The translations under genes and the position numbers were made by a program. Below are positions 18,101 to 56,851 of a stretch of DNA of 64,000 nt, piece after piece (positions within the stretch are counted from its first letter, which is position 1; each line of letters starts with the position of its first letter). The notes beneath the pieces are model-generated. The model worked only from the letters and a program-made list of their open reading frames with translations. It was not told where the DNA came from and did no database searches. Source of the stretch: Nereocystis luetkeana (lineage: Eukaryota; Sar; Phaeophyceae; Laminariales; Laminariaceae); assembly GCA_031213475.1 (NCBI GenBank), contig JARUPZ010000018.1, positions 4,625,680-4,689,679 on the forward strand. The letters are read 5' to 3'.

Positions 18101-21100
18101 GCAGTGCAATCAAAATCCCTTGCAGTACTACGCGACACAGGATGCAGCTCTTTCGGTTCACCTGCCAGACTTGTTACGGGGGAGCTTTGGTCAAGGGTAG
18201 GCAGCACAGCAGTGCGGTGCAGCAGGACAGCGTCAGCACAGCAGTAGAACAGCAGTACACGTATTTTACAGAAAGAAGCCCGGTACGAGTATGATATACA
18301 AGCTTCTCGTATTATAAATAGATTGTTCGGAAGGCACGGCGGCGATTGTCGACATCGCTGTGTGAGATTGTGGAGGGAGGGAGAAGTGCATTTTTTATTT
18401 TTTTTTATTTTGCTCATCCCATTTATTATCTTCGCACATCTTCTTCTCTCTCTCCTTCCAACTCGTAACTCAGATCCGGGGTCACATAGCAGGCTCTTCT
18501 CCCCTCTTCCCGCTACGGTACGTGCCTCCATTTTTATCGCGAGAAGATTTCAGCCTTTTTTCCCCTCGTCGACTCGCATCGAATTGTGCCTACCCACGTT
18601 GCAAGGCGCTCTCAACAATTGAATCCTTTTTATTTCTATTTTTGCAAATAAAGTCAAAAGTCCGACCCACCTGGGGCTCGAACTCAGGGCTCAAACACAA
18701 GTAGAATTCGAGGTTAACCACTTGCACCACCGGGGCGACCGGCAATGGGCAACGGAAAAGCAAAACAAACATACTATTACGGAGGACCATGTCAAATAGG
18801 GCTTACGGTACACACATAAAACCATATATTTCGCTATTTTTACTCACAATATTTGGCCCTATTTACTGTGGTCCCCCGCAATAAAAGAAAAAATCTTCAG
18901 CCACATGGTCCAATCGGCGCGAACCCCCAGGTGGCGTGTTCTTCTTACTGCTACACCTCTAGCGTTTGCCTGACGATCACAGCACATCATACAACCTACA
19001 ACCAGCGGACAAGCCCACCGCCGACACCGTCCTTTCGTGCCCTTCTCCGCGTGCCGTCTTTTTACCGGCCGTTGTTATTATTTAATACCAGGTATTAATA
19101 GTGAAAATGAAAAACAACAGCTGTGAGATCGAGCACTTGCTCGAAAATCATTTTTTTGCAAGCTGTATGTGATGCTTCGATCGCGCGTAATATTATTAAT
19201 ATTAATAATACGTACTGGTACCAGATAAGGGTTTGTATGGCGTCGTCATGCAGGAAATCAGGAAAAACAGCAGTCCGTTTACGCACGACGAGCAAGACAA
19301 AATCTGAAGCTGCACAATTTGAAGGAGTGGGTGTACTACTAATACTAAAACGGCCACGTCCACTTTAGGGGTATACTTCTCACTTGAGGGGTATACTTCT
19401 GTATAGGTCCCTTATTCGAGGCCATATTTGTCAAGGGACGTCGCTATATAAGGAACCCTGTCGCCCCGAAGCACTTTATTAGTCTCTAGGCGCTGTGGTC
19501 CCTCGACTACTGCTGTCAAAGACGACCACCTGTTGTTGTTGTTGTCTTCACATTAAATCGTCCTTTCTACCCAGCATCATCAGTACACCCAGTGTCTGTC
19601 CTGATTCCTTGTCCTGGAGAGATGCTGATTCTTCTGTGGTCACAGACTGCTGTGAGACAGAGGAAGACCAAAAAGAAACCATCTGCTACGACACTAAATA
19701 CATGCGTGTATCCATACATGCGTGTATCCATACATTCATACGAGTACACATGTTCTTCATATACGGTTTCTTATTATGGGGCTGTCAGCACCGTTCGGTC
19801 AGCACCATTTATCGTTGCTTCAATAAAAAAAATCACGAGACTTTTTTTTTTTTCGAATTGTATTTTGTCGTCTTTTTTTTATTCGCGTTGTGTATGTACT
19901 CCGATTTGTCTCCTTTGTTTTTGTTTTTCTCTTCGATTGTTTCGTTTCGTTTCTCTATTTCACAAAATGTGTATGCCGTTCCTGTCGTATCTAGTATAAT
20001 GACATGGCATTGACTGCTGTGCTTACTGGGTACGTGGCAACGTAGTATCTCTGCTGTGGCGTAGCTTTGTGACCTCAGAACTTGTATCTCTTCTAGGATT
20101 GAAGAATCGGCACGGACACTGGTTGTGCTGGATGTCGACGGGTAGAAAGAACGGTTTAATGTAAAGAACAAACACACACACACTCCTGCTTCTTATATAA
20201 TAAGCGTGCGGTTTTGACAACTTGGATCCACGTCAACTCTTCGTCCCCCCACACCCTAGACACAGGGCTTTCTCCCCAAGCAAGCCGGTGTGCAAGCGAG
20301 GTCGTATATCGTGGGTCGTGGGTACAACAAGCAGACGAGATGAAACGACAGCAGCAGTACTCGCAGAATGCAACTGGGCTCCGAGTGAGTGATCATCTTT
20401 GGGTATAACATGCATACATATATACCAGGTATGTTTGTCGATGATTATTTTACTATTCTATAAATAATCACCCTTGGTAAAATCACATTATACACTGGTT
20501 GTGCTGGATGTCGACGGATAGAAAGAACGGTTTAATCTGAATAACACACACATACCTGGTAATAACTTCGATTCAACCTCCTACGAGTTGGGCTGGAAAG
20601 TAAAAGTGGTGATTGAAAAAAAAAAAAAAGTCGACGAAGGAAGAATTCGCAATGCCATGGCATCATACTGGCTACTGCGAGACCGAGGAATTACTCCCTG
20701 AGGAACAGTGCGGCTTCCACCCCGCACGATCAACAATTGATATGCTGTTCGTCGTGCGCCGGTTGCAAGAGCTCGGACGACAGAGGAAAACCCCCTGTAC
20801 GTGTGCTTCATCGATCTGCAGAAAGCGTACGACTCTGTCGACCGAGAGCTGTTATGGGAGGTACTTACACGCTTTGGCTTACCAACCAAGATGCTGAGAA
20901 TTTTCCGTAATTTCCACGATGGCATGCGGGCTCGCGTGCGTACTGATGACGGCGAGCACCCGGAATGGTTTAATGTCACGCAGCGGCTGCGGCAAGGCTG
21001 TGTACTATCACCGTTACAGTTGTTCAACGTATTCTTCGCTGCTGCGTTACACGTCGTACCATTAATAGTACGCTTCAGCCAAGACGAAACCATCTTAAGG

Positions 21101-24100
21101 GATTTGGTCCAACTCAGTGATGCTGAAGTAGTTCGAACAGAGAAGCAGGGGCCATTGGCGTGCGTGCGAAGGGCTGTATGGGGCCTGTTGTACGCCGATG
21201 ACGCAGGAATTGTCTCGAAGTCGGCTGAAGGGCTCGCGAAAATGACGACAGTCATCGTGACTGTCTTCGAAGCAGCAGGCCTCACGGTGTCGGAAAAGAA
21301 GACAGAGACAATGCTCCTACAAACACCAGACCAGACAACCCTCGCACCACCGCTCGTCATCGAAGCAGCAGGACGGAGGTATAAGCAGACGACCAAGTTC
21401 TTACACCTACGCGGCATTATCCGCGAAAATGCTCACCTCTCGCTCGAAATCGACCGACGGATCCGTCTCATGCGAGCATGCCTCAAACGGTTCGGCCCGG
21501 AGTTGTATGATAGGACGTCCGCCCCCCTTAGCCTGAAAGTCCGAATGCTGAAGGCCGAGGTGATTGAGACCCTGCTGTACGGGTGTGTGACGTGGACCTT
21601 CAGAGCGTAACACTTTGCCAAGCTTCGAACGGCTCACCACCAAGTCCTGTTGCGAGTCATTGGCTTCCAACACCGACTTCGTACTTTCCATGCCACCCTC
21701 TCGTACGCGAAGACCCTCAAGATGACACGTTGCGAGAGCATCGAAACGACCATTCGTAAACGGCTTGCTCTTCATTTGCGGGGGGTGTGGCACGGCAAAG
21801 CAAGGAGCGGTTACCCAGTCGGGTAATATTCGGGACGATGGCTGGTGGGGAGAACCCGAGACCTGGCGAACAGTTTTAAGACTTGGCATAGATGCATAGT
21901 CGAAGACCTTGGGGAGTTCCGAGCCACCGAAGGGTCAACGGAAGTTTCCCGCTTGGTGTTTGGAGTTGAGACCGCGCTGTGGTCGACTGCAGCAAAAAAA
22001 GGCGGGAAGTGGTACTGGAGGATCCTTGAAGCAGCCGAACGATTCATGGTGAGGTGGCACGAGGCTGAGGCTGAGCTGAGTAGGCGGCGCCGCGCATCCG
22101 CCGTGGATGGTGTCCAAGGGAATGGGGGCGGGGGGGGGGGACAGGAGAAGTAGCAGAAAACCCGACCAAGGGAATGCGGAGAGGGGGGGGAACGGGAGGA
22201 GTAGAAAGGAAACTGTGGTGGACGAAAGTAGGAAGGATCCCCGGGGCAGACAGGGTAGCGAGACACCAGGCCGACTAGGGAATAGAACATGACTATACTA
22301 CTCGTGCCACCAACTGGTGCAGCTGGTTCGAACGTGGTCTTCCCTTGTCTTCTCTTTTTTTTTTTTTTTTTTTTTTTTGCGCTGATTCTCCGTGATTTTC
22401 CATTTGTTTCTTTCTTTTCTTTTTTTCGATTGATAAGGTGTATTGGGAGTCGTGTGGCGTGGGTTGATGACGAACCCGCTCTGCTTGTTTCGTTTTGTCT
22501 GACGCCAAGAGGCTGGGCATAGTTGACGAACGCAGGGCGGAGACGATAGTCTGGGTAGCAAGGTACCAGGCGGACTAGCAGGGAGAACCTGGCTATACTA
22601 TACGTACCACAAACTGCTGCCGCTACCTGGAGGGTGCTTTGTGCTTTGGTCCGCTTGTTAGTTTCCCTTTGATATTTTTTCCTCGGTTCTTTGTCTTACT
22701 CTGTTTACAGGTAGTGGTGGTCTTTTTTTTTTCAATTGTCTGCCACCTCGCCTGCGGGGGGGGGGGGGGGGCACGACATATTGTTCTTCTATTTTTTTCT
22801 TTTTTTTCTTTCATTTTTTCTTGTTCTCTTTCGACTTGTCTTCTTTGTTTTTGTTTTCTCTTTGATTGTTTCCTTCCGTCTATCTATTTCATACCTGGTA
22901 GAATGTGTATGTCATGCCTGTCGTATCTAGTATGATGACATGGCAATTCATTGGCCACTGCTGCTGTGCCTACTGCATACGTGGCAACGTACTGTTGTTT
23001 GTACAGCAGTAGTATCTTCTGTGGCGCTTTGTGACCACATATCTTGTATATCTTCTATTAATAGGATTGAAGAATCGGCACTGACACTGGTTATGCTGGG
23101 TGTCGACGGGTAGAAAGAACGGCTTTCGATGTGAAGAACATACACATACGACAGGCACGACATACATATTCTATAAATTAGAGATAATAAACAAAAGGAA
23201 ACATAAAAAAAAACATGAAAAAACAGAAAGCAAAGAAACAAATCAGACAGCAGAGGGACAATGAACGAGAAAAAATAAAAGAAACATCTGTCGTGCCTCC
23301 CTCAGGAGATGAGGCAGACATTTGAAAAGTCCCGCAGTCCCGTTTTGGGGACAAACTACGTAGAATTTGACTGGATTGTCCGCAAAACGGGACTGCAGTT
23401 CTAAAAGGGTTAAAAACAGCTCCACTACGTACTATTAATATAATCAAACAGACTACCAGGTATTAATGAGAACCAAGGCCGGTCGCCCGGGTGGCTCAGG
23501 TGGTTAACCTCGAATTCTACTTGTGTTTGAGTCCTGGGTTCGAGCCCCAGGTGGGTCGGACATTTGACTTTATTTGCAAAAATAAAAATAAAAAAGGATT
23601 CAATTGTTGAGAGCGCCGTGCAGCGTGGGTAGGCACAATTCGATGCGAGTCGACGAGGGAAGAAAAGGCTGAAATCTTCTCGATGTTAAAAATGAAGGCA
23701 CGTACCGTAGCGGGAAGGGGGTAGAAGAGCCTGCTATGTGACCCCGGATCTGAGTCACAAGTTGGAAGGAGAGAGAGAGAAGAAGATGTGCGAAGATAAT
23801 AAATGGGATAAGTGAAGGAAAAAAAAAATGGAAAATAACAGGCAGGCCGAAGAACAATGCACCCACCCTCCCGGTATAGATAGCCGCAGCAGTTTGTGTT
23901 AGTTGTGGCATAGCCAGGTTAACCCTTTTAGAACCGCAGAGTCCCGTTTTGGGGACAAACCTCTCAAATTTCGAGTAGTTTATCCCAATAAACGGGACTG
24001 CGGTTCTAAAGGGCGACTGATACCTTGCTACCCTGTCTACAGTCTCTCCGTCCTGCGTTCGTCAACTATGTCCGTGTGTTCTTCACATTAAACCTTCATT

Positions 24101-25816: not shown

Positions 25817-28800
25817 CTTGAGTGTTAATTGTTGGTTTGTTTGATCGTGACATGAGATTCATGACGGAAATTATCTCATGTTTTGTCGGTCCACGACTTT
25901 GGATTTTACTATTATTAGAGATTCAGAGTTTTCGTAAATATATTATACCTGCGGGTACGAGTATTAATAAAAAGCTGATGCGACAGGCACGCGAAGGAGC
26001 GGGCAGGAGGAGGTACCGAGCAGATCGCCGGGTTGAAGCTCCACTGTGCCGGCTAGCGGGATCTGTTGCAGGCCGTTTTCAACGAGGTGTTCGTCAACGG
26101 AGAATCGGGGGAACCGCGTAGCATTTCCACAAGGTAGCTGCCGGCTAAAGCCGGCGCTCCATTGCTGCGAACCAGGGAAACTTGGACGAGCTGGTGATCA
26201 CGTGAGAGCGATATGCCGTCGTCCCCGGCGTAAAGGCGGTGGTAACTGCCGGCAGGGGCCGAGAAATCGGAGACCAAGGCGACGGCACCAGTTGAGGATT
26301 GGTGAGATAATGTGAGCTCACCGAAAACGCGACTATCGCGTGGGCGCGGGGGCAAGGTGCGGTAAGAGCGCTCGCCGAACCGCATCCAGCTGTAGCGACC
26401 AAGGAGGACATCATACTGCATGGCCTTGGGGGGGACTATATAAGCCCAGAACGCGAGCGATGCAGTAGGTCTGTCGTCGTGCAGAAACTGGACGCTCAGG
26501 CGGACACTGGCGGAAGTCTGCAAGGGGGGGGGACTTTCCGAAACCGCCCCACGAGCGTGGGGGGGCTTGTGTCTCGCATACGGTCGAGGCCGCACCGGAG
26601 TGCACCATGTGCTCCCAAGCTGTCCGGGTGAGGAACGTCTGGGGGGAGCCTTTGTCCAAGAGGGCGACGCATCCAAATGCGGTGGAAGCGTGGCCGCTGT
26701 GGGCCTTGACTTTCGTCGTGAAGGAGGAGTGATCCATGGTGGCCAAACCAGGGACCAAGCAAGGTCCTTGCTCCGCGAGAGTTTGGGCGACCGGAGCAGA
26801 GTCTCCTGCTGTTGATGTGACGGAGAAAACGTCGCCGCCGTGGTCCGATGGTACATTCAGCTCGAGAGTCGAATAGCCAGAGGGAGCGGTGGTCGTGTCG
26901 CAGGTCGAAAGACGCTGCTGGGAGGTGGGGTTCACCTCAAAAATGAAGTCCTGACCTTGCGGGGGCGGGGCGCCGCGCGAGGGGGAGCGAGAGTGACAGC
27001 GGGCCGGCGGCGGCGCGCGGTCGCGTAGGCGCTGGCGCACAAGCTGTAGGGTTTTTCCCAACAGGTTGAGGCCGCGCCATTTGGAGGGGTGTGTGGCGTT
27101 GGCGTGATTCGCTCTATAGCCTATTCCCCAGATGGTATCATAAGGGCTTGCTTCTGCCAGCAGCCGGTTGCCGGTTCCCAGCAGATGCTGTTGCATGGCG
27201 GGCTTTTGGGCGAACTTTGCGTAGGAGCCGATGAGCACAATATTATCGCGCTCGTGTTCCCACACGGCGGCATCAAAATTGAGCACTTCACGTCCCGTAC
27301 TGTTTGTGTAGTTTTGGATCGGACACGCGCATAATTTTTTGAAGCGCGAGGTGATCACTAAATAGGCGGCTTTTTTCTGCAGCGAAGAATTGTTCCGCTC
27401 ACAAATAAGAAGTACCGTCTACTGTAAACCTGGAAGGGGTCCATTGCGAGAAGCAAGAGGGAGGTTGCCAGAAAAACACTATAGTGGGGGTGCAATATTC
27501 CTGGGTGGCGTCAAACGCGGCGGCGGTAGACGCGGCGTGAGCCAGGGGGGGAGTGTTTTCACGCCGCCCAGATAGCGGGGGGGTCGTCATCCATTGGCGA
27601 TACCCCACGGGCTACTTGTCCCTCAGGGGTCCCAATCTGGGGGCCCGAGGTGGATTCGCTTAGTTGGGTCGTCGCTGCCTGTCCCAAATTTTTAGGGGGG
27701 GAGGCTGGGGGCTCCCGACCGAACTTTCTTGACAAGGTCAGCGAGTCTTCCTCCGCCTGTGCGGGGGGCGATTTAAGTGCGTCCACAAAAAAAGGTGTTG
27801 CCATTACTGTCGGGGGGGCGGATGGGGTCTGGTCGTTCAGATGGCCCCGGTCCGTCCCGCCCGGAACAAAGGGGGCGCGGTTATGCGCGGAGGGCGTAGC
27901 TGCGGTTGAACCCTGGGGGGGGAATATTTTCCCTACCGGCTCTCGGACCGCCGGTGATAAACCAGAGGTAGAGGAAGGATCCGTGACCGTGCGCTGTCCC
28001 GGAGGGGCGTCAGGATGAGCAAAATTTCGACGTTCTTCGGTAATGGCGCAAAGTGGTAGGTTCCGACCGGTCTTGCTTGCAGACGTAGGGCGGAGCCCCG
28101 CTATACTCTTACGTCGGTGACTCCGGTTCCCGCACCTCAAGGCGACCGTCGCATCTGGGGAGCAAAACCCGGTTGCGGCAGAAGCTTGCGATGGAGTAGT
28201 AGGAGACGTATGCGAACGGGCAATAGTGTCGTTGTCGCGAGGGGGGGCAGCGTTGTACGCACCCTGACCGTGCGATAAAATCCCTATAGGGGGGGATAGA
28301 GAGGCGTTACGATTTTTATCGTTTTCGCGAAGGGGGGCAGCGTTGGACGCGCCCTGACCCTGCTGTAAAACCCCTATACGGGGGAATAATGAGGCATTAC
28401 GATTTTGTATCGTTGTCGGGAAGGGGGGGCAGCGTCACACGCGCCCGGACCCTGCTTTAAAACACGAGTAGATGAAGGGGGGTGTCGGCCGTTCAAATTT
28501 GTTCGAGGTTTGCCTCCCAAGAGTGTTACAGGCGGAACTGGGAGTTGGGGGGCGCCGCCATTGGGCGGCCATCCCGAACGGAACGTTCCCGGGTGGCGAG
28601 CGTTCGGGTTTTTATTGTCCGAAGTGTGCAAGGCGCCGTAGCGGACACCAGGAGTTCCAGCGGCCGAGGCAGGGGCCGGGGGAGTTCCATGGTTAAGCAG
28701 GCAGCACTGGAAGACGAGGCGACGGCCGAGGCGGCGAAGAACGCAACGGGGAAGCGCAACAAAAACCGGGAGAAGATGGCCGCCATCGAGGCCAAGCAAC

Positions 28801-31800
28801 GGATGCTGCGGCAGCAACTCGAGGAGGCATCCAAGCAACTGACTAAAGCCACGTCGGACACCGAGTCCACCCACCGGGCAGTGGGCGCGGCAGAGAAATC
28901 TGCCCGGTGGGTGGGCTCGGTGTCCGACGTGGCTTTAGTCAGTTGCTTGGATGCCTCCTCGAGTTGCTGCCGCAGCATCCGTTGCTTGGCCTCGATGGCG
29001 GCCATCTTCTCCCGGTTTTCGTTGTGCTTCTCCGTTGCGTTTTTTTCACCGCCTCGGCCGTCGCCTCGTCTTCCAAGTGCTGCCTGCTTGGCGAGGGCGA
29101 TTTCGTCCAGTGAGTGGACGCGTTGTACAGCCAAGGGGGCGGTGGTGATCATGCTCGCCCGAAGGGCCGGCGACAATACCGTCCATTGGGCCGGAGAAAT
29201 GGCCGCCGAGTACACGTCGGGGATGGGCGGGAGGGAGGTGGTGGGCGAAGCCCCCGAGACGCCTGTTGCCGGCGTCACGAGTGGTGTGGATGGTCCGTCC
29301 CCAGGTTCCTCCGGAGCATCGTCTCTTGGCCCCTCGAAGTCTACGAGATCGTCCATAGGGTCGTGAGGGGGTTGGCAGGTAGCCATCTGGGGACAGAGAG
29401 TAGATGAAAGAGTATCCGACAGGCAGGAGCGCGGGAGCGAAGGCGCAGGAGATACCGAAGGGGGGGGGGGCGGGGCGTGGAGGGGCACAACCAGTGATCG
29501 GAGTCGAAGCGGAATCGGCACTATAATCAAGTGAAACAGTGCTGTGTGCTTGGTCCTCACTAATGGCAGGTGGGAGATCGCCGGCGGCTTGGGCCTACAC
29601 TAATTTTAAGTGAAAAGTCATCAGTTGATTGTGTTGATCGCAGTGAAAATGTGGTCAACGCGGAAGGCTCTCGGGTTGCATCCCTGCTGTCGGTATGTGT
29701 AGGGCGACGAGCTCGGGCTCGAGCATCGCGACGAATGCTGCGCAGGTCGCGCTGCGAGAGAGGGAGCGGTGTAGCTACCAAAGGTTGGTTGCTGGTACAT
29801 GAAAACGCTCGTGGGCCGGGGAGAAAAATCTCCGGGGCCGGGGACCCGCCTGTAGGCGAAGGTAGGTTTCCGAGGACGTCACTTCATGAGCGAGGGGTCG
29901 TCAGTTGTCGCCAAAAGTACTGCTGTGCGATCAGAAGGAGTATTCGTACCAGGCACTGCTGTGTGTCCCAGGGGTGCACGTGAGGCAGGTACTGCTGTGG
30001 TGGCCGTGCCCAATAGGCAGGCCACCTGAGCGGGCGAGCGATGCAGCCGCGCTTGAGATACCTCTCGTGGGGTACTCTAGGCGGCCGCAGTCGGGGTCCG
30101 GGGAGGGGGCAGCTGGTCACATGTTTCGGGAAAATTCAGACGATTTTCACGAAAGTGCGAGAGCTGTCCGGTCCTTGTCGGAATGGGGTGGCAAACTGTG
30201 TTCGTCACGGTGGTAGCAGTGGCAACCACAGGCGAGGGTTCGAGAACCGACACCGGTGGGGTGCTGCTGCCGCTCTGGCTCACAGCGATAGCGGCGGCGG
30301 TCAAAACCCTGAGGGCAGAGACGGGCGAGAGGCTATCGAGCGGACTGGAGAGCGGCGCGGGCACACCTTCGAAGTCTTGGTTTCGAGGTGGACGGGCGGG
30401 TGCTTGAGATGAAGTTTCGCGTGTTGGTCGCGGCTGCTCAACTGGCACAATCACGTCATCGATCGCGCGTGGTAACGCAATCGGTGTCGGAAGGGTGGCT
30501 TCCCTGGCGAGTGCTGCAATACCATGCAGATCTGGCTGGGGCGTCGGGGTGACATTCGACAGGTGAGCGGTGGCGGGCTCACTTGTGGAAGGGGTCAGCA
30601 TCTCTAGGGAGCTTACAGCTGCAGCCGAATGCGAAAGAGTATCCGAGGCGGCAGAATCCAGACCGGTACCAGCTGTCTCAGGGCGGGTCAGCATCGACAT
30701 GCTAGATGTTAAGACGAGCTGTGACAGGATACTGTCTAAGGCAGATGCTACTTCGGTACGTGGTGCAGCAGTACGAGAGACAGTGGCTAAGCCAGCGCAC
30801 GAGGCTGGGAGTATATCAGCACACGGGGCTGGGACTAGGGTCTGGCTGGGGTGGAGCGGCGAGGCAGCAGCATGGTCGCTAGAGGGGGAGGTTACGCTGA
30901 AATCGAGGGGGCCGGATTCAGAGGGTGAAAGGCTTTGGAAGCTGGCTACCAGGTGGAAACTTCGAGTGGCATCGTTAATTGCGGTCAGCTGGTGAAGCGA
31001 GTCGGGGAAGCTCGGACCTGCAAGCAGAGGTACTGCTGCAGGTGCAGCACGGCTATCGTCGCTACTGTCGCAGTCAGTGCCTACTGGGGCTGCGACTGTG
31101 TCTACGCAAGGCTCGTTGGGTACGTCTGGTGCTTGCGAGCCAGACGGAGAAGACTCATCAGCAGAGGAGTTCATTGAAAAATCGAAATGAGAAAAAAAAA
31201 CCAGCAAGATACTCGTACGTACGAAAAACGAGAAAAATAAGAGACAGGATTTTTTTTTTGGAAACACCGAGGCTGCTGCTTCTGCCGAGCGTATCAAGGA
31301 TCAGGCTCGCAGAGAGAGCAACCCAGAGCGATCTAGACTCACGTGCCTGCGACGACGCCATATGAGAGGGTATTGCTACTCTAGGATAGATTATGCGGTA
31401 TAGGGCAAAGCCCGACTACCGGAACAGGTTGAGACAAGAAGGCTTTTGGTCACTCACAAAAGTTCGATGTATTATTTTATTATCACGCTGATGCCTTGCT
31501 GAGGAGAAATTCTGAGCGCAGGGGGCATCAAAGCATTATTTGCTCGATGCGTGCTCCAACAGAAACAGTGTTTCAATAGAAACACGCCACCTCAACAATA
31601 GAGGGGAAACGGGGATACCAAGAATACCATGGCATTAGGGTTTGGGTTATAGGGTTAGAGTCAGGGGTTGGGTTGGGTCTTCGCCCGTACCTGAATCCTA
31701 ACAGGAACCAAAACACCTGAACAGCCTACCAACCTAAAGGTCCCTTCTCTCAGACTGTTAAGAGGTCCTCGAAATACAAGAGACGAAGAAGGCGCACGCA

Positions 31801-34800: not shown

Positions 34801-36771
34801 ACTGGTGGGGCGATTGTTTTATACAAACAAGCGCTGGTTTATTTTGCGCCGTCGCTCATGACTCAGGACTTCGGCGCCGGGCTCCCCGGCAGAAACGTTG
34901 CCGTGCCCCCCTCGAACGAGGCGAAACTGGCAGCAGCGCTACTCTGTTGCAGGGAATCTTCTGGGGGAAACGCCGACCAAAGTTGTCACCAAAGTGGCCG
35001 GAACCGCCCGACCGACGCTGTATTCCGCGGAATGTGTGTGTTCGGTTTCTGGCAGCTATTGGTTCGTTGTTGCTGCTGCAGTAGCATCGCAGTATCATCC
35101 CGGGTTTCCCTTATTTTTTTCATTTCGTGTTTAGCAAATATCTTGCCTGGAGGGAGGAAGTTTATGTCGATACAATTCGTTCACCACACTGCCGTGCTGC
35201 CCTGGGTGTTACTTATTGGAAACACAGGAACGGAAGCGGGCTCTAATGCAAAACGCGGAGTGTATAATTACCCTGCCTGGGGGGTTGGGGACGTGGGACG
35301 AGCTCTGGGAGATGGTCTGCCTCAAGGGGATCGGTAAGCGGGAGGAGCAAGAAGCGCTCACGAAACGCACTCGTTCTCGTTTTTTGGACCTGTACGACAA
35401 AAGGTCATTCATTCCCCGGAAAAATTATTTCTGCACACCAGCGCTGTCTAGGGCTTTTCTCGAATCTCCGAGAAGCGCGTTTACATGCGAAGGCCGCACA
35501 CGCGCAGCCAGTGTGGGCTGTGCATCGCGACGTCGTTCAGATGTTGAGTCGTCAGCCACCCTACCTTCCCACCATATTGACGTTTTCTAAGGTGGAGACC
35601 TGTCCTGTCTTGAGGGAGAGCTCTTGTCGAAACTTGGTGTCCATGTCAAGCGATCATTCTTGGCCCGTTCGCCAACGTCGCTGGTCGCGGTGATATGAGT
35701 ACGGCAGGGTCGACGACGACCCTGATGTGCTCCGTACCGGCATGGTAGGGATACCAGGGTCTATGGTCATACGACTACAGCATGCTTGACATGAGTATCC
35801 CCCCCCCCGCGCCCTCGTTTCTCCACGCTGACAATCAGTACGCGTGCAGAGGCTTACCCTGGAGGCGCGCCTTCACTAAAGTTTCAGACCAGTGTTCGAC
35901 CGCGGTTGGCTCTCGGTGTCGCGTGTTATCGGCGAGTAGGCTTTCCTTATCCGACACTCTCGTCGCTCGCTGGAGTTGCCCCGTTGTCAGCCCCGCACCA
36001 GGTAGTAGCGGTCGTCCTTGACATCGGTCTCGTCTCTCGCCTCGCTCGCCGAACAGGTCTATGCAACCTGCCGATATGCGTGATTGACGTGGACGACTTC
36101 TACGCAGGTGAGTTGGCGGATAAGCGAGGACGTCGTGCCACCACATTTTTTGTATCGGCGCCGCCGAAAGCGCCTTGCCTGGTTTACGGCTGTTGGGGCA
36201 GTTTTCGAGGCGGCCCTTCGTTTTGATGTAGCAGGGGTATCTGTCGACTGGATCTACTATCATGGAGGGCGTTGGCCTGCTGACCGAAATGGGGGGGGCA
36301 TCAGCGCTCACTTTTTTCTGCCAACATTGCGGTTCGACCACGAGAACGTTTTCGGCAAAAGCCTTTTGTTTTGTTTTTTTTAGTAGCACTACCCCTAATT
36401 GTCCAGGACCGAAAATGCCGGTGCCCGAGTCAACGCGGTTTTCAGTGTGGCAGTGCGAGGATCGATATTGATGGTGCCGGGCCCGATACATGTTTTCAGT
36501 GTAGCGGTGCGCTGCTGTGTATGGGCTGCCACACGCCGCTGGTTTGGTTTTGCGAAGGCGGGGTGCGATTTGGCAAACATCGCTTGCGCCGAGGTAGAGC
36601 TTAACGCCGCTGTACGTCGTGCTCACGTGCTGTTCGAACTCGTTTCTATGTATCCTCGTCCCAGGTTTCAAGATGCAAATGAAGAGGGCGCAGGCCGACC
36701 GCCTCCTTTACGCAGACATGGACAAGCTCGTTCACTTCACTAGGGATCCTGTGACGGTGAAACAGTCTTGA
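1013..36771 (+). CDS. LOG: LOG-family cytokinin riboside 5'-monophosphate phosphoribohydrolase (six exons, 184 codons plus stop)
   Basis: Family enzymes hydrolyse cytokinin nucleoside 5'-monophosphates to free base plus ribose 5-phosphate in the cytosol. Six exons (55, 92, 144, 106, 51 and 107 nt) total 555 nt, exactly 185 codons with the stop; every intron is GT-AG and all phases match. In order the protein shows an N-terminal beta strand FCVYGSSS (residues 11-18), a Gly-rich nucleotide loop VNGAGRSGCMG (about 44-54), the Arg-Lys motif LQERKRAL (96-103) and the family signature [12 protein letters not shown] (114-125). The length suits the family (usually 180-230). The ATG at 1013 has A at -3 and G at +4; no upstream in-frame ATG was found. 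The middle loop reads NGAG where plant LOGs have YGGG. Exons 3-6 are the best supported; joining exons 1-2 across 32.6 kb rests on phase and homology. Activity on cytokinins is inferred; some relatives act on other nucleotides. Confidence 0.8.
1377..1468 (+). CDS. LOG: LOG exon 2
   Basis: It follows a C/T-rich tract (about 1322-1350) and the acceptor ACCAG. It codes for a helix [16 protein letters not shown] and strand LTVNGAGR, matching the LOG segment between the first strand and the Gly-rich loop. It ends at phase 0 before GTGAGT at 1469, which matches the phase-0 start of exon 3. Confidence 0.72.
1537..1580. repeat. (CTG)n microsatellite
   Basis: About twelve CTG/GCT units, then an interrupted TTGCTG. 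It lies about 70 bases inside LOG intron 2, so it is intronic on the gene model. Confidence 0.9.
1581..3095. other. Intron stretch with no gene
   Basis: Holds a short TACTCG tandem (about 1990-2013), an imperfect inverted T-rich/A-rich hairpin (2280-2390), several TACCWGGTA sites and a T-rich, CTG-interrupted tract (2740-2860). No coding region supported. Confidence 0.5.
3096..3420 (+). repeat. SINE-1 (tRNA-derived), near full length
   Basis: The head has Pol III-type boxes: TGGCTTGGTAGG (A-box-like) and GGTTCAAGTCT (B-box). The body carries the shared core (GGCACGTACCG ... GTGACCACGG) and the end is GGCTGGAAAGTAAAAGTGATGA. Confidence 0.75.
3434..3640 (+). repeat. SINE-1, 3' half only
   Basis: Repeats the 3' portion of the preceding SINE-1 (from GAGTTAGCTACATTCGATG) in the same orientation and ends in an A-run. 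A 5'-truncated insertion or local duplication. Confidence 0.7.
3721..4072 (+). repeat. SINE-2 (tRNA-derived), full length
   Basis: The head GTCGCCCCGGTGGTTCAAG with B-box GGGTTCGAGACCC is tRNA-like. The body reads TTGAGAGCGCCTTGCAGCG, then the core GGCACGTACCGTAGCGGGAA, and an A-rich tail. Same unit as at 4522, 18391, 23479 and 53181. Confidence 0.8.
4138..4246. mobile_element. MITE-T copy 1 (TA-flanked miniature element)
   Basis: About 108 bp with near-perfect inverted ends: TATTACGGGGG at the left, CCCCCGTAATA at the right, inner arms GTTAACAGGACC / GGTCCTGTTAAC. No coding capacity. It is a reference copy for the family. Confidence 0.9.
4522..4851 (-). repeat. SINE-2, minus strand, head truncated
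   Basis: Reverse complement of the SINE-2 unit: T-run at the left (its A-tail), then TCGCACGTCTTC, core and B-box GGCTCGAACCCAGG. The head stops in CACTTGAACCATGG. Confidence 0.8.
5033..5141. mobile_element. MITE-T copy 2
   Basis: Inverted ends TATTACGGGGGACCAT and ATGGTCCCCCGTAATA; inner arms read TTAATAGGACC / GGTCCTATTAA. Confidence 0.88.
5271..5367. mobile_element. MITE-P copy 1 (diverged)
   Basis: AACCCCCTTAGTACCGCAGT at the left and CGGGACTGGGGTCCTGAAGG at the right form inverted ends of the TTAA-flanked family. The outer TTAA is lost here. Confidence 0.75.
5514..5558. repeat. (GTGTGAGC)n octamer tandem
   Basis: About five units of GTGTGAGC, the last mutated to GTGTGAAC. Confidence 0.85.
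5559..6185. other. Intron stretch, somewhat GC-richer, unassigned ORFs
   Basis: Open frames of up to 186 codons exist on the minus strand (5652-6212) and 100 on the plus (5881-6183). They show no recognised motif and overlap each other, so neither is called. A TACCTGGTA site lies near 5962. Confidence 0.35.
6186..6443 (-). repeat. SINE-1, minus strand
   Basis: Reverse complement of SINE-1: TAGGGTTCAGCATTCCCGCT, GTCGATTTTCATCGAAAGT, B-box complement GGGCTCGAACCC and head complement GCACGCGGACCAC. The 3' part is diverged. Confidence 0.72.
6444..7082. other. Intron stretch with no gene
   Basis: Nothing recognised except a G-run near 6835-6846. Open frames on both strands here are short and unconvincing. 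Confidence 0.4.
7083..7345 (+). repeat. C-tail repeat copy 1, tail end only
   Basis: A C-tract (about 7090-7112) is followed directly by the 3' end of the repeat, GGTCATACGACTACGGCC ... ATCGAGTACACCCC, which again ends in C-rich sequence. Strongly 5'-truncated; the flank to 7345 is unassigned. Confidence 0.72.
7372..7622 (+). repeat. C-tail repeat copy 2, longest plus-strand copy
   Basis: Runs from GTCCGCCTCACAAGCGG through GGTCGGTGAAAACCCGACG and GGTCATACGACTACGGCC to ATCGAGTACACCCCCCCC. The small ORF across it is not a gene but resembles the C-terminal coding end of a LINE. Confidence 0.78.
7643..7800 (+). repeat. C-tail repeat copy 3, internally deleted
   Basis: Starts GTCCGCCTCAAAAGCGG and jumps from CGCTTGGTGCAAGGACC to ACACGACTATGACC, ending ATGAGTACACGTCC. 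It is head-to-tail with copy 2 after that copy's C-tract. Confidence 0.72.
8466..8690 (+). repeat. C-tail repeat copy 4
   Basis: A run of about 18 C precedes AAGTCCGCCTCAAAAGCGG. The copy continues to GACTACGGCC and then C8, so it lacks the last 30 or so bases of the unit. Confidence 0.75.
8691..10269. other. Intron stretch with no called gene
   Basis: Contains two tRNA-like heads (9098-9255, listed separately). ORFs at 8726-9046 (minus) and 9064-9456 (plus) are not recognised and not supported as genes. Confidence 0.4.
9098..9255. other. Two tRNA-like Pol III heads in head-to-head orientation
   Basis: Plus strand 9183-9255 has TAGGCCAGTTGGCAGTGC (A-box-like) and GGGTTCGAATCTCGCC (B-box). 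Minus strand 9172-9098 has TAGGCAAGTGGGCAGCGC and GCGTTCGAATTTCGC. Neither folds into a convincing full tRNA by eye; they look like SINE heads or tRNA pseudogenes. Confidence 0.45.
10270..10375. mobile_element. MITE-P copy 2
   Basis: Ends CCCCTTCAGGACTGCAGTCC and GACTGCGGTCCTAAAAGGG, then TTAA at the right. The interior reads GGGGACGAACC ... GTTTATCCCC. Confidence 0.85.
10388..10494. mobile_element. MITE-T copy 3
   Basis: Inverted ends TTACGGGGGACCACAG and CTACGGTCCCCCGTAA. It lies only 13 bp from the preceding MITE-P copy. Confidence 0.88.
10780..10888. mobile_element. MITE-T copy 4
   Basis: Very close to copy 1 (same inner segment CAAATATTGTTAGTAAAAAT), with ends TATTACGGGGGGCC and GGTCCCCCGTAATA. 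Confidence 0.9.
11135..11250. mobile_element. MITE-T copy 5, with internal TA micro-insertion
   Basis: Ends TATTACGGGGGACC and GGTCCCCCGTAA. Its middle reads AACCTA-CCAGGTA-TGTATT where sister copies read AACCTATATATT. Confidence 0.88.
11251..13123. other. Intron stretch with microsatellites, no gene
   Basis: Holds a (GGGT)n tract near 11808-11848 and a (TA)n tract near 12158-12199. The 191-codon frame at 12086-12661 crosses the TA tract and shows no reliable domain. Confidence 0.45.
13124..13232. mobile_element. MITE-T copy 6
   Basis: TATCACGGGGGACCATAG at the left and TAGTATGGTCCCACGTAG at the right; both ends carry point changes. Confidence 0.85.
13233..13942. other. Intron stretch with no gene
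   Basis: Nothing recognised. The 162-codon minus frame (13608-14096) runs into the next MITE-P and is not considered real. Confidence 0.4.
13943..14036. mobile_element. MITE-P copy 3
   Basis: TTAACCCCCTTGGAACCGCA at the left and GGGACTGCGGTCATAAAAGG at the right. Confidence 0.88.
14433..16380 (+). mobile_element. LINE-B reverse transcriptase fragment framed by inverted repeats (copy B1)
   Basis: An inverted-repeat arm (14433-14577, containing CTACCCGTCGACATCC and GTGTCCGTGCCGATTCTTCA and ending GCCACAG) abuts the 3' part of an RT ORF. A long T-rich 3' region follows and an arm in the opposite orientation ends at 16380 (GTGTCGACGGGTAGAAATAA). The 3' region holds two similar blocks containing GGGTAGCAAGGNACCAGGC. 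Confidence 0.65.
14578..15530 (+). pseudogene. LINE-B reverse transcriptase, C-terminal half (copy B1)
   Basis: Fragment of a non-LTR reverse transcriptase. It begins at the catalytic loop [14 protein letters not shown] (YADD in copy B2), followed by the thumb-region segments [32 protein letters not shown] and [13 protein letters not shown]. Frameshifts occur after LLQTPEHT and again after the TAA at 15002-15004 (FRA-stop). The downstream frame resumes with [19 protein letters not shown]. The finger and palm parts upstream of the catalytic loop are absent, so it cannot be active. Nearly identical to copy B2 and sharing its premature stop. Confidence 0.82.
16433..17100. mobile_element. IR-B solitary inverted-repeat element, with MITE-T inside
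   Basis: Left arm 16433-16558 and right arm 16971-17100 are inverted copies of about 125-130 bp (CTACCCGTCAAAATATCC ... GCCACAG / CTGTGGCGTAG ... GAAGAACACACAC). The interior is A-rich without an RT and is interrupted by MITE-T copy 7. Confidence 0.78.
16648..16756. mobile_element. MITE-T copy 7, nested in IR-B
   Basis: TATTACGGGGGACCATAG at the left and CTATGGCCCCCCGTGATA at the right. It splits the IR-B interior at CATCA-TAC, which is continuous at about 24530-24545. Confidence 0.9.
17287..17378. mobile_element. MITE-P copy 4
   Basis: TTAACCCATATAGAACCGCA and GGGACTGCGGTTCTAAAAGG, with the inner arms of the family. Confidence 0.88.
17483..17576. mobile_element. MITE-P copy 5
   Basis: CCCCTTTAGAACCGCAGTCC and GCGGCCCTAAGAGGGTTAA. 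A degenerate half copy (GAACTGCAGTCCTG ... GAGGACAAATCACTC) follows directly at 17577-17620. Confidence 0.88.
17621..18390. other. Intron stretch with no gene
   Basis: Unassigned. Short CAGCAGTA-type motifs near 18077 and 18245. The 199-codon minus frame reaching into SINE-2 is not a gene. Confidence 0.4.
18391..18741 (-). repeat. SINE-2, minus strand
   Basis: Full unit in reverse: T-rich tail complement, TCGCACATCTTCTTC, core, B-box complement GGGGCTCGAACTCAGG and head complement CACCGGGGCGACC. Confidence 0.82.
18775..18883. mobile_element. MITE-T copy 8
   Basis: TATTACGGAGGACCATG and GTGGTCCCCCGCAATA; somewhat diverged inner arms. It lies 34 bp beyond the SINE-2 head. Confidence 0.85.
19542..20184. 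mobile_element. IR-B element, left arm diverged
   Basis: The left arm (CTTCACATTAAATCGTCC, CAGTGTCTGTCCTGATTC) is diverged. The right arm 20051-20184 is typical (CTGTGGCGTAG ... GTGTCGACGGGTAG in its diverse forms). The interior holds CATACATGCGTGTATC tandems and T-rich tracts. Confidence 0.65.
20488..20565 (-). repeat. IR-B arm fragment
   Basis: ACTGGTTGTGCTGGATGTCG and AGAAAGAACGGTTTAAT are the outer part of an IR-B arm, followed by a TACCTGGTA site. Confidence 0.7.
20577..20630 (+). repeat. SINE-1 3' tail fragment
   Basis: CTCCTACGAGTTGGGCTGG, AAAGTAAAAGTGGTGATTG and an A-run, immediately upstream of LINE-B copy B2. Confidence 0.7.
20640..22180 (+). pseudogene. LINE-B reverse transcriptase (copy B2), longest RT copy
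   Basis: Non-LTR retrotransposon RT. Visible blocks in order: [19 protein letters not shown] (finger), then after a frameshift [20 protein letters not shown] (motif A, catalytic Asp), [10 protein letters not shown] (motif B region) and [16 protein letters not shown] (motif C, YADD intact). Thumb-region segments follow to [13 protein letters not shown]. The frame closes at TAA 21608-21610 and the C-terminal part resumes in other frames ([38 protein letters not shown]). The endonuclease and ORF1 regions are not present. The upstream boundary carries CAATGCCATGGCATCATACT, close to IR-B interior sequence. Confidence 0.85.
22181..22690 (+). other. LINE-B 3' untranslated region, internally duplicated
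   Basis: Two similar blocks (about 22250-22420 and 22550-22700) each contain GGTAGC...ACCAGGCNGACTAG, a CACCAACTG or CACAAACTG segment and a T-rich tract. The same pair occurs in copy B1. Confidence 0.65.
22691..23155 (-). repeat. IR-B right half, downstream of LINE-B copy B2
   Basis: Runs from CTGTTTACAGGTAGTGGTGG, through a G-tract and T-rich tract and GTATGTCATGCCTGTCGTAT, to the arm GTGTCGACGGGTAGAAAGAA. Carries a TACCTGGTA insertion (22890) and a 20-bp TA insertion (about 22995-23015). Confidence 0.72.
23327..23412. mobile_element. MITE-P copy 6
   Basis: CCCGCAGTCCCGTTTTGGGG and CGGGACTGCAGTTCTAAAAG, then GGGTTAA at the right; the left end is shortened. Confidence 0.8.
23479..23830 (+). 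repeat. SINE-2, plus strand
   Basis: Head GGTCGCCCGGGTGGCTCAGG, B-box GGGTTCGAGCCCC, core GGCACGTACCGTAGCGGGAA and an A-rich tail. Confidence 0.83.
23919..24012. mobile_element. MITE-P copy 7
   Basis: TTAACCCTTTTAGAACCGCA and GGGACTGCGGTTCTAAAGGG; the interior is typical. Confidence 0.88.
24060..24347. repeat. IR-B fragments, rearranged
   Basis: A diverged arm (GTGTTCTTCACATTAAACC, CCGGTGCCCGTGCGGATTCT) is followed by interior sequence in the reverse sense (CTCTATTTCATAGAATGTG ... CTTACTGCATA-CCAGGTA-CGTGG). Confidence 0.6.
24348..24930. mobile_element. IR-B solitary element, cleanest copy
   Basis: Left arm 24348-24478 and right arm 24800-24930 are inverted copies of about 130 bp; the interior is about 320 bp, A-rich, with no coding region. 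A C-run and GCAGGCGAGGTGGCC sit mid-element. Confidence 0.82.
24978..25074. mobile_element. MITE-P copy 8
   Basis: TAACCCTTTTAGAACTGCAG at the left and TGGGACTGACCTCAGTACTT at the right; the right end is decayed. Confidence 0.8.
25200..25485 (-). repeat. C-tail repeat copy 5, minus strand
   Basis: A G-tract of about 18 (its C-tail), then GTACTCGATAGGAGAGATGT ... TTTTCACCGACCAGGCAGAC ... CTTGTGAGGCGGACTTGGAG, then another G-tract with a scrap of a further copy (TGTACTCGCCCTAGTCGTAT). Confidence 0.8.
25486..26052. other. AT-rich stretch with (TTGA)n microsatellite
   Basis: TTGATTGATTGA tandem at about 25784-25816. No gene recognised; this is the downstream flank of the antisense NADAR retroelement. 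Confidence 0.5.
26053..26760 (-). pseudogene. Retropepsin-like aspartic protease of the NADAR retroelement
   Basis: The active-site loop reads [12 protein letters not shown] in one frame, where a family member should have D-T/S-G; Thr is replaced by Lys. After a frameshift in the G9 run near 26522-26531 the second half continues with FWAYIVPP and the conserved [13 protein letters not shown] (LLGRDSW in many retrotransposon proteases). A C-terminal stretch of about 110 residues ends at 26053. The frameshift and the DKG change suggest it is dead. Similar loops occur in Ty3/gypsy-like and other retroelement proteases; the exact clade is not decided. Confidence 0.72.
27020..27479 (-). pseudogene. 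NADAR (YbiA/DUF1768-like) domain inside the retroelement polyprotein
   Basis: NADAR proteins cleave N-glycosidic bonds; known ones act on riboflavin intermediates or remove ADP-ribose from guanine. About 153 codons are recognisable: [13 protein letters not shown] (N-terminal strand), [13 protein letters not shown] (matching the SSEHYFQAQKF block with catalytic Glu), [32 protein letters not shown] and [15 protein letters not shown]. These are the family blocks in the right order and spacing. Two lesions are visible: a TGA at 27399-27401 and one extra G near 27300 that shifts the frame. It sits between the Pro-rich region and the protease, so it was probably part of the polyprotein. The domain call is strong; its role in the element is unknown. 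Confidence 0.83.
27559..28140 (-). CDS. Pro/Ser-rich linker region of the retroelement
   Basis: An open frame of up to 193 codons with low-complexity Pro, Ser and Thr content and no domain recognised. It ends 80 bases before the NADAR blocks, which continue in another frame (27608-27399), so it is best read as a broken part of one polyprotein. Upstream, 28230-28400 contains three spaced runs of G-rich sequence with a repeated GGGGGGCAGCGTTGGACGC-type unit. It may be only a remnant. Confidence 0.4.
   Translation of the reverse strand: MRCGNRSHRRKSIAGLRPTSASKTGRNLPLCAITEERRNFAHPDAPPGQRTVTDPSSTSGLSPAVREPVGKIFPPQGSTAATPSAHNRAPFVPGGTDRGHLNDQTPSAPPTVMATPFFVDALKSPPAQAEEDSLTLSRKFGREPPASPPKNLGQAATTQLSESTSGPQIGTPEGQVARGVSPMDDDPPAIWAA
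28526..29386 (-). pseudogene. Gag-like region with coiled coil, rearranged by an inverted duplication
   Basis: From the ATG at 29386 the frame opens with acidic, Pro-rich sequence ([20 protein letters not shown]). It then enters a strongly charged helix ([32 protein letters not shown]), a likely coiled coil as in gag or ORF1-type proteins. At 28901 the frame enters the mirror copy of the same DNA, so the rest (28526-28900) is antisense-derived and not original protein. No CCHC knuckle was seen. The assignment as gag is inference from position ahead of the protease. Confidence 0.5.
28695..29091. repeat. Inverted duplication inside the gag-like region
   Basis: Arms 28695-28880 and 28901-29091 are inverted copies of about 186-191 bp with a 20-bp spacer; arm ends GGCAGCACTGG and CCAAGTGCTGCC, centre CCACCCACCGGGCA / TGCCCGGTGGGTGG. 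Confidence 0.92.
29387..30076. other. Antisense-element stretch between ORFs, no gene called
   Basis: Contains a G-run at about 29460-29470 and several copies of the motif GTACTGCTGTG or close variants (29918, 29955, 29991). No domain recognised on either strand. Confidence 0.4.
30077..31174 (-). CDS. Ser/Pro/Ala-rich ORF, 366 codons, unknown
   Basis: The longest intact frame in the window (406 codons counted from 31297; the ATG at 31174 is chosen because the upstream 41 codons are a Phe-rich read of an intronic A/T tract). Composition is dominated by Ser, Pro, Ala and Thr with no predicted membrane segment or Cys-His motif, so it is probably disordered. It lies antisense in LOG intron 2 and upstream of the gag-like region. 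It may be an accessory or N-terminal gag ORF of the retroelement; a host gene is possible but unsupported. I do not recognise it. Confidence 0.4.
   Translation of the reverse strand: MNSSADESSPSGSQAPDVPNEPCVDTVAAPVGTDCDSSDDSRAAPAAVPLLAGPSFPDSLHQLTAINDATRSFHLVASFQSLSPSESGPLDFSVTSPSSDHAAASPLHPSQTLVPAPCADILPASCAGLATVSRTAAPRTEVASALDSILSQLVLTSSMSMLTRPETAGTGLDSAASDTLSHSAAAVSSLEMLTPSTSEPATAHLSNVTPTPQPDLHGIAALAREATLPTPIALPRAIDDVIVPVEQPRPTRETSSQAPARPPRNQDFEGVPAPLSSPLDSLSPVSALRVLTAAAIAVSQSGSSTPPVSVLEPSPVVATATTVTNTVCHPIPTRTGQLSHFRENRLNFPETCDQLPPPRTPTAAA
31625..31680 (+). repeat. Degenerate telomere-like repeats
   Basis: TTAGGGTTTGGGTTATAGGG followed by TTAGAG and GGGTTGGGTTGGG; variants of TTTAGGG/TTAGGG, about 50 bp. 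Confidence 0.5.
32739..32820 (+). repeat. C-tail repeat copy 6, tail end only
   Basis: About 19 C, then GAGGGTCTATGGTCATAATA and ATATCGAGTACACCCCCC. Confidence 0.75.
34058..34201 (+). CDS. LOG: LOG exon 3
   Basis: 48 codons, phase 0 at both ends, from [11 protein letters not shown] through VRGVIHEMW to EIVGGAGLQ. The acceptor is AACACAG and the donor GTGCGT at 34202. It supplies the rest of the Gly-rich loop and the strand ahead of the Arg-Lys motif. Confidence 0.85.
34202..35227 (+). other. LOG intron 3
   Basis: 1026 bp with two similar segments (34230-34330 and 34400-34500: CTTGCGGTACTGGACAT ... GTCTGGAGCG) forming a diverged direct repeat. No other gene. Confidence 0.6.
35228..35333 (+). 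CDS. LOG: LOG exon 4 with the PGGxGTxxE signature
   Basis: Begins [11 protein letters not shown] and holds [12 protein letters not shown], the signature of the LOG/TIGR00730 Rossmann-fold family. The acceptor is AACACAG, the donor GTAAGC at 35334, phase 1. Intron 3 is 1026 bp. Confidence 0.88.
35700..35812 (+). repeat. C-tail repeat copy 7, in LOG intron 4
   Basis: GTGCTCCGTACCGGCATGG, GGGTCTATGGTCATACGACT and ATGAGTATCCCCCCCCC; diverged and 5'-truncated. Confidence 0.72.
36057..36107 (+). CDS. LOG: LOG exon 5
   Basis: Short exon coding [16 protein letters not shown], the LOG strand that follows the active-site helix (plant form KPVGLLNVDGYY). The acceptor is GAACAG, the donor GTGAGT at 36108. 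Intron 4 is 723 bp. Confidence 0.83.
36665..36771 (+). CDS. LOG: LOG exon 6 and stop
   Basis: Codes for the C-terminal helices ([21 protein letters not shown]) and ends in TGA at 36769-36771. The acceptor is TCCCAG. Intron 5 is 557 bp. Confidence 0.83.
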
Positions 36772-55661: not shown

Positions 55662-56720
55662 TTCATTGGCGACACCACAGGTGGAGTGGCATGCGGGGTC
55701 TACAGTGTAACACTTCAGCTAGGGCACCGGGCGGTACGTTTTCCATGGGGGCAAGGGCGCCACGTGCTCCATGCTCGTTGTGTGATAGAGGTCCTAGCGA
55801 GAGGCACGCCACCGGCACCACTCCGTTGTCCAGCCGCCGACTGGATCCCGGCATCCCAGACGGGACGCACTGGAGGCAGCGGTCCAAGCTGACCCGAGTC
55901 TTCGCAATCGGGCGGCGCGGAAGGGAGGGGGGGGCATAGGTGACGAGGATCTACGCAGCCCGGGGCTTTGGTACGGATGGGACCAAAGCATCCTGGGCAT
56001 AGGGCCACCACTCGATGCCGTTTCCTTGGAGGACCTGGGGCAACGTTTCGCAACCGGGAAAACAGTACAGCCGCAGCTGGCACGAGCACATGCGCGTCTG
56101 AGCGTTCACACCCTTGGCATCCTCAACCACGCTATGGGAGATCACCGGCCGAACCGGGACTCGGCGATATCGATCTCGCTCCTGCCGGCGATAAAGTTTC
56201 TGTACCTCATGCCAGCCCTGCTCCATTCACAGGACGGCCGGATAAAGAGGTGACAGAGATTCGCGCTGGTGGAGAGCGGGGGCATAGTGCTCCTGCTCCC
56301 ATGGCTGATAGCGTACACAAGGAGAGAGGGCTTGAGACAACGGCATACCGCCCAGGAAGCTTCGGAAGGGGCGAAACTTGAGCGAGCGTCGCCTGCGTGT
56401 CGCCTCGCGGGAACGGTCAAAGTGGCAGAACGCAACCTTCTGGAAAGAACCACGATCAGCGGGGAACGAGGAAACGTGGAATGGCCAAGTTTGCCCCCGA
56501 AGACCATGCCGCCGTGTCCGCGGCGGTGGCGGCCGTAGTGCCAGCGAGCGGCACCAAGGTGGAAAATGAAAACGCCCCCCCGTGGCGTCCTGACGATGAG
56601 TATGTCTCTGAGGTGCTCTTCGACGTCATCAACTCCCGGAGCGCCCTCTCAGGTCCCGGAAACGACGGTCAACGATTTGTGCATCTACAATCCATCATTC
56701 AAACCGGAATCGGCAGAGAT
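55662..56720 (+). pseudogene. LINE-C N-terminal region
   Basis: CGVYSVTLQLGHRAVRF ... FHARC-type spacing (GRHVLHARCVIEVLARG, about 55750-55800) suggests a decayed RING-like or other Cys/His finger, with one Cys of the first pair now Tyr. The reading then moves through several frames (LARAHARLSVHTLGILNHAM; MAKFAPEDHAAVSAAV) to NSRSALSGPGNDGQRFVHLQ at about 56640, which is the segment just before the RT finger. Finger type is an inference from spacing only. Confidence 0.5.
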
Positions 56721-56851
56721 TAGTTCGGAAGTGGTATATCAGCTTTCTGGCGGAGAATCGTCGACGAGCCGGACGCGTTCCCGCCAGAGTTCTGGCAGCT
56801 CTTCCTGCAGTCAAGCGTCACTGCGTTGGGGGAAAAGTCGGGCGGTTTTGC

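Follow-up and report, generated by a model that had tools for sequence, protein, structure and literature searches.

The question raised by this locus, a 64-kb window of the Nereocystis luetkeana genome, is whether a NADAR domain on its minus strand belongs to a retroelement polyprotein, as a first-pass annotation had claimed, and what such a domain would do there. The domain is encoded at 27002-27506 (minus strand), as located with the PF08719 profile and tblastn. The longer open frame (26411-27418) alone matched PF08719 with E=4e-30 and 105.7 bits (cut-off 35.1), and residues 5-172 of the NADAR of a relative elsewhere in the genome, L026, aligned to the window in two frames (E=1e-76); a chance origin of the match is excluded. 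All five NADAR blocks that had been named were found in order inside 27020-27479 on the minus strand: FFWQPP (27459-27476), AEQFFAAEK (27372-27398), YAKFAQ (27206-27223), a 13-residue block with a conserved Glu (27119-27157; aligned with 8bau), and WRGLNLLGK (27053-27079). The E-x6-K pair of NADAR (Glu and Lys) falls in the second of these, and its L026 equivalent aligns with 8bau and YbiA 2b3w. The domain carries one in-frame stop, immediately before AEQFF, and one frameshift near 27295, and the window copy of the element is dead and decayed.

NADAR lies within a relic of a NADAR-bearing LTR retrotransposon, preserved from its 5′ part through the protease (25971-31080, minus strand; limits from the end of the blastn matches and from tblastx to L035). 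A retropepsin-like protease follows in two frames at 26314-26785 (minus strand), where the protease piece of L026 matched the window with E=1e-47 and 2e-36 (tblastn) and the frame changes within the protease. Its active-site triad reads DKG, versus DTG in L024, L026, and L013, and the relatives carry the motifs LLDTGSPQS and LLGRDSW. At E values up to 1, Pfam detected no protease in the window frames, nor did it in L026 at values up to 10, while the L024 protease reached Asp_protease_2 at E=0.033 and 15.3 bits, under the cut-off of 24.3. Since it is barely visible to Pfam even in a relative, the name of the protease rests on motifs, position, and homology; the retropepsin originally described beside NADAR thus stands by tblastn to the L026 protease and is weak by profile. 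The start of the region connecting protease and reverse transcriptase (RT) overlaps it at 25967-26331 (minus strand; tblastn, 79–81% identity, E=5e-48).

On the other side of NADAR, the Pro-rich N-terminal part of Pol occupies 27580-27800 (minus strand; tblastn E=1e-13). The region described earlier as Pro-rich and gag-like is indeed Pro-rich and located 5′ of NADAR, but is gag-like by position only, with no Pfam match to Gag in the window frames, L024, L026, or L035; all three lineages of copies described below (A, B, and C) have a conserved upstream stretch of 64–124 aa. Farther 5′, the element region at 28319-28721 (minus strand) matched L026, L030, L031, and L034 at 73–74% identity (blastn), with the relatives' alignments overlapping in short repeats. 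Beyond it, on the 5′ side, is a further coding region, a pre-NADAR ORF, at 29105-31080 (minus strand), which gave scattered protein-level matches of 37–62% to L035 by tblastx (best 1.7e-58; 8 of 27 pieces among the matches listed) and no Pfam match in the window frames or in L035. These weak 5′ matches extend the relic to about 31080. A near-perfect inverted repeat (145-nt arms, 97%, 18-nt spacing) also lies within the 5′ part of the relic, at 28737-29044.

At the 3′ end, DNA matches to L026, L030, L031, and L034 all stop at 25971 (blastn), beyond which the window sequence is by eye richer in A+T, and the RT, RNase H, and integrase of the family have no match anywhere in the 64-kb window. Because the matches end there and these domains are absent, the element is a truncated relic, and it is very nearly certain that the window sequence is a 3′-truncated, decayed copy of a Ty3/Gypsy-type LTR retrotransposon with NADAR in Pol (type read from Pol order and the LTRs of one copy; the RT tree described below holds family relatives only). 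Elsewhere in the window, RVT_1 fragments at 20741-21607 (E=5e-19) and 56612-57727 (E=2e-12) represent other retroelements, LINE-like by reading, and a Lysine_decarbox match (PF03641, E=1e-9) at 35135-35587 is likely an exon of a host gene. Two repeat families, D1 and D2, of about 67–93 nt around CCGCAGTCCCGTTTTGGGGACAAAC, are palindrome-like and present in 7 to 11 copies among those listed. A viral scan flagged four stretches and confirmed none.

A NADAR profile search of the 465-Mb assembly (1987 contigs) returned at least 150 matches above the cut-off (150 of 150 scored, from 778 candidates), so the segment is not confined to the window. Forty-eight of the 150 scored matches lie in open frames of at least 2000 aa (hand count), one of them with a stop inside the match. 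At the DNA level, relatives of the window copy are 77% identical to it in the leading matches and 78–79% in some shorter ones (40 of 208 candidates were scored, giving 68 matches, the window's own among them). We examined 28 distinct NADAR places, comprising the 8 top-scoring, 16 with frames of at least 2000 aa, and 4 that are close relatives of the window copy; the choice of 16 for long frames biases the sample toward intact copies. A protease was found 3′ of NADAR on the same strand at 26 of the 28; of the other two, L008 has RT and RNase H, and at L006 a protease piece lies on the opposite strand. RT matched in all 20 of the 9.9-kb stretches searched, the match in L010 covering 33 residues only, and the Pol order in the sampled relatives is NADAR, protease, RT, RNase H, integrase.

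Copies of the kind sought, with NADAR beside protease, RT, and integrase in long open frames, are present in the same genome. By Pfam, L024 contains NADAR (163.9 bits), RT, RNase H, and Integrase_H2C2, and L026 contains the same set (NADAR, 154.7 bits) plus rve at E=2.8e-6 and 28.0 bits, under the cut-off of 32.6. A Chromo match in L026 is likewise below its cut-off (E=0.0019, 18.5 bits versus 25.1), and the C-terminal piece of L024 gave no Pfam chromodomain match. The L024 copy, of lineage C (C21:7670454-7684897), spans 14.4 kb and is bounded by 494-bp LTRs (TG..CA) without difference, the sole mismatch in their 497-bp alignment falling just outside TG, and by a 4-bp target-site duplication, ATAT; the undiverged LTRs and the duplication together mark it as a recent insertion. 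The flanks retrieved for the L026 copy showed no LTRs. The family is unevenly distributed: contig C1, 4.7% of the assembly, carries 54 of the 150 scored NADAR matches (hand count; binomial p=5e-33) versus 9 of 150 on the like-sized contig C2. An RVT_1 control placed 6 of 150 matches on C1 (hand count); one other element family seems to dominate that list. Contig C1 could be a sex chromosome or a hotspot for insertion.

Beyond this genome, a first protein search left no hit at E≤0.001 among 1242 candidates. A search with the NADAR-protease piece as query recovered 85 proteins; scoring was confined to the 7999 candidates with the most shared words, and protein lengths are bounded by the query. 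NADAR is present in 75 of these, together with protease in 69, with RT in 28, and with both in 24. Protease or RT accompanies NADAR, with the order kept, in 73 of the 75, the exceptions being P0080 and P0083, which have neither; the latter is a 1554-aa metagenomic protein combining a C5 DNA methylase (PF00145) with a NADAR domain. Across the 69 proteins with both domains, the gap between NADAR and protease is 52–106 residues (median 68). The 10 proteins that lack NADAR mostly start at or shortly before the protease. Among them, 149 residues precede the protease in P0074 and 260 in P0078, and P0084 shows a partial protease match from residue 459 on; neither P0078 nor P0084 contains NADAR by Pfam. 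Seven named proteins come from Ectocarpus sp. CCAP 1310/34, five of them with NADAR; P0060, P0061, and P0065 match the L026 region at 61–63% over 39–43%, and P0061 contains rve (37.7 bits, Pfam). Long-open-frame copies of the NADAR polyprotein thus also exist in other public contigs. A structure model of P0086, whose NADAR is 77% identical to that of L026 over 92%, has a pLDDT of 85.9 and is helix-rich.

In order to place these domains, the requested tree of element NADARs was built from 84 sequences. It includes 20 of 80 bacterial loci, those 80 being the best of 580, and 8 of 80 viral loci, the best of 488, and 17 of an earlier 73 rows were dropped, mostly near-duplicates, along with the long branch P0083 and Ectocarpus P0065 and P0068. 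Three NADAR lineages (A, B, and C) were resolved among the sampled copies, two of them with a myxobacterial sister group. The main element clade is supported at 99/94, the neighbouring clade at 97/92, and the two jointly at 95/94, in a bootstrap that stopped short of full settling. The neighbouring clade consists of Polyangia L124, Myxococcales L125, Nannocystis L126, and four unnamed proteins; other myxobacterial rows (Corallococcus L132 and Minicystis P0187) are placed elsewhere. In free trees, the lineage C NADAR groups with P0044 away from the others, weakly supported and close to phage and viral rows. A single clade for all element NADARs was not rejected (p-AU 0.347 and 0.461), nor was one with P0044 outside the group (p-AU 0.131), in tests whose groups were named after the tree was seen and in which rows nested in the element clade counted as element pieces; a separate origin of the lineage C NADAR is thus not established.

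In a tree of RT plus RNase H, a supported branch separates lineages A, B, and C, together with Ectocarpus and further rows, from the rest. Four of its 31 rows lack NADAR and are scattered, which fits loss or truncation. Compared with L026, RNase H is 78–80% identical in lineage C and 78–81% in lineage B apart from a decayed copy, and RT is 76–78% identical in C and 68–71% in B, where a gap of 11 residues depresses the figure. Lineage B and other lineage A copies have 11 residues that are absent from the RT piece of L026 (5080-5559). NADAR identity to L026 is 45–47% in C versus 53–57% in B, and protease identity is 50–57% versus 57–67%. The lineage C NADAR may therefore have been replaced, or the whole front of its Pol may have diverged faster.

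The predicted active site is well preserved. Among the genome rows, which represent the 28 places, the E of AEQ and the K seven residues further on are present in 32 of 32 and the E of EASP, which we read as the last-strand Glu of NADAR, in 31 of 32; the window copy retains all three. Of 73 polyprotein rows, 54 keep the E of AEQ (18 have a gap and 1 a G), 59 keep the K (14 gaps), and 68 keep the E of EASP (K in 2, gap in 2, A in 1). The spacing of the pair equals that of E88 and K95 in E. coli C7 NADAR, where, in the excerpts available of PMC11543638, K95 is essential and E88Q is inactive, but E88A is only mildly affected in vitro; a conserved Glu is therefore no proof of activity.

Selection was measured with a simple Nei-Gojobori count between the relic and L026. 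The dN/dS ratio is 0.16 for NADAR (171 codons), 0.18 for protease, and 0.14 after the protease; the linker gives 0.30 and the Pro-rich flank (78 codons) 0.69. NADAR differs from the flank (Fisher p=0.0013) but not significantly from the protease (p=0.88) or the linker (p=0.24). For the longer half of NADAR, the relic gave 0.22 with L026, 0.30 with L030, 0.20 with L031, and, with the frameshifted copy L034, 0.55. Purifying selection on NADAR is thus clear across this deep split. Among the close lineage A copies L030, L031, and L033, NADAR dN/dS is 0.70, 0.32, and 0.89 versus 0.24, 0.23, and 0.18 for protease, and NADAR there looks less constrained than protease. Pooled within families A, B, and C, pN/pS is 0.84 (including a frameshifted copy), 0.50, and 0.38 for NADAR, 0.31, 0.51, and 0.99 for protease, and 0.53, 0.75, and 0.33 for RT. 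Young copies carry few changes with decay mixed in, and purifying selection among them is unclear; overall, the element appears to have kept NADAR by selection.

A conserved active site, selection across a deep split, and a particle-type polyprotein together point to a catalytic role close to the nucleic acid of the element itself. The first-pass suggestion that NADAR undoes ADP-ribosylation or counters NAD-dependent host defence is compatible with these conserved residues and with the selection seen across the deep split. Translated within the Pol polyprotein, NADAR would probably be carried into the virus-like particle, where, as an ADP-ribosyl N-glycosidase, it would most likely take ADP-ribose off guanine bases of element RNA or cDNA and so shield reverse transcription from host ADP-ribosyltransferases. 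The reaction documented for NADAR in the available excerpts is removal from guanine; in those of PMC11125620, all NADAR/YbiA proteins tested hydrolysed ADP-ribosyl-guanosine. This most likely role of the element NADAR, hydrolysis of ADP-ribosyl-guanine to protect the element's RNA or cDNA, is a tentative reading from sequence, a little short of even odds, and we put relic identity and this mechanism taken together at a probability of roughly 0.45. The host side counts against the role, as a profile search of the genome gave no DarT match and PARP matched in one exon, in a search in which no control genome matched and intron-bearing genes match exon by exon. The role is further weakened by the NADAR ratios among lineage A copies (0.32–0.89 versus 0.18–0.24 for protease) and by the related P0078 and P0084, which have no NADAR match.

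Other roles would use the same residues differently. Rather than bases of the element's nucleic acid, the target of NADAR might be soluble signals of a host defence that derive from NAD or ADP-ribose, or its RNA-repair by-products, a role proposed for phage NADARs (excerpts of the review PMC9503650) and compatible with the conserved catalytic residues, which would suit a soluble or a nucleic-acid substrate; the same source assigns macromolecular targets to the NADARs embedded in RNA-virus polyproteins, and we regard a soluble substrate as rather unlikely. The domain might instead process the element's RNA intermediate apart from host defence, as suggested in the excerpted text of Dinatale et al. 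(PMC12477816), or be a folded binding domain or spacer, consistent with its fixed site just 5′ of the protease, at the gap given above, and with its weaker constraint among close copies. A spacer is, however, unlikely to keep E, K, and E near-invariant or a protease-like low dN/dS across the deep split, and this pair of options is doubtful. That a host NADAR gene fragment came by chance to lie beside a retroelement relic has in its favour the decay of the window copy only, and is ruled out by the protease on the same strand at 26 of 28 places, with RT and RNase H at L008, and by the common order in 73 of 75 proteins. Its probability is negligible, and the original claim that NADAR is built into a retroelement polyprotein, 5′ of the protease, is upheld.

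A more elaborate history would have a myxobacterium-like NADAR donor, a later swap of NADAR in lineage C, and an active counter-defence enzyme, a combination we consider improbable. If true, brown algae would restrict retroelements via ADP-ribosylation of element nucleic acid, a defence of which we know of no description. The lasting presence of an ADP-ribose-processing domain in the polyprotein makes it testable whether retroelement nucleic acid is tagged with ADP-ribose by eukaryotic hosts and cleared of it by the elements, and the family supplies many natural NADAR sequences for assay.

The first-pass annotation had also supposed that this class of retroelement was undescribed, which is refuted by Dinatale et al. 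2025 (PMC12477816). According to excerpts of that paper, one Ectocarpus Gypsy lineage out of four carries a YbiA-family NADAR as the N-terminal part of Pol; its best hits are bacterial, and RNA processing is the role suggested. No other paper on NADAR in retrotransposons appeared among those listed in searches of the open-licence literature. Likened by description, the Ectocarpus sp. 7 lineage (e.g. Gypsy-12_Ec32) has NADAR at the N-terminus of Pol as here, whereas the window copy is a truncated relic with about 77% DNA identity to its nearest relatives, and the genome here is 465 Mb with three NADAR lineages among sampled copies, versus 200.2 Mb for Ec32. In the same excerpts, ORF1 of the Tx1 LINE of Crassostrea gigas is another case of a retrotransposon recruiting a YbiA-family NADAR, by description in a non-LTR element and a different protein. 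Positive-strand RNA viruses also embed NADAR in a replicative polyprotein, as described in the excerpts of PMC9503650, but use an RNA-dependent RNA polymerase, without reverse transcription. The DarT1-NADAR and YarT-YbiA systems (excerpts of PMC11543638 and PMC11125620) share the E-x6-K pair, with the Glu as in YbiA-type NADARs by alignment, but are bacterial antitoxins adjoining an ADP-ribosyltransferase, whereas the genome here has no DarT match. The myxobacterial NADARs L124, L125, and L126, sister to the main element clade, also lie in bacterial loci. Relative to what the excerpts of the published class contain, the additions here are the myxobacterial sister group, the measures of constraint, and the lineages of this genome. 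What is, judging by its size, a second genome shows, across wide divergence, that a retrotransposon polyprotein can stably include a domain that processes ADP-ribose.
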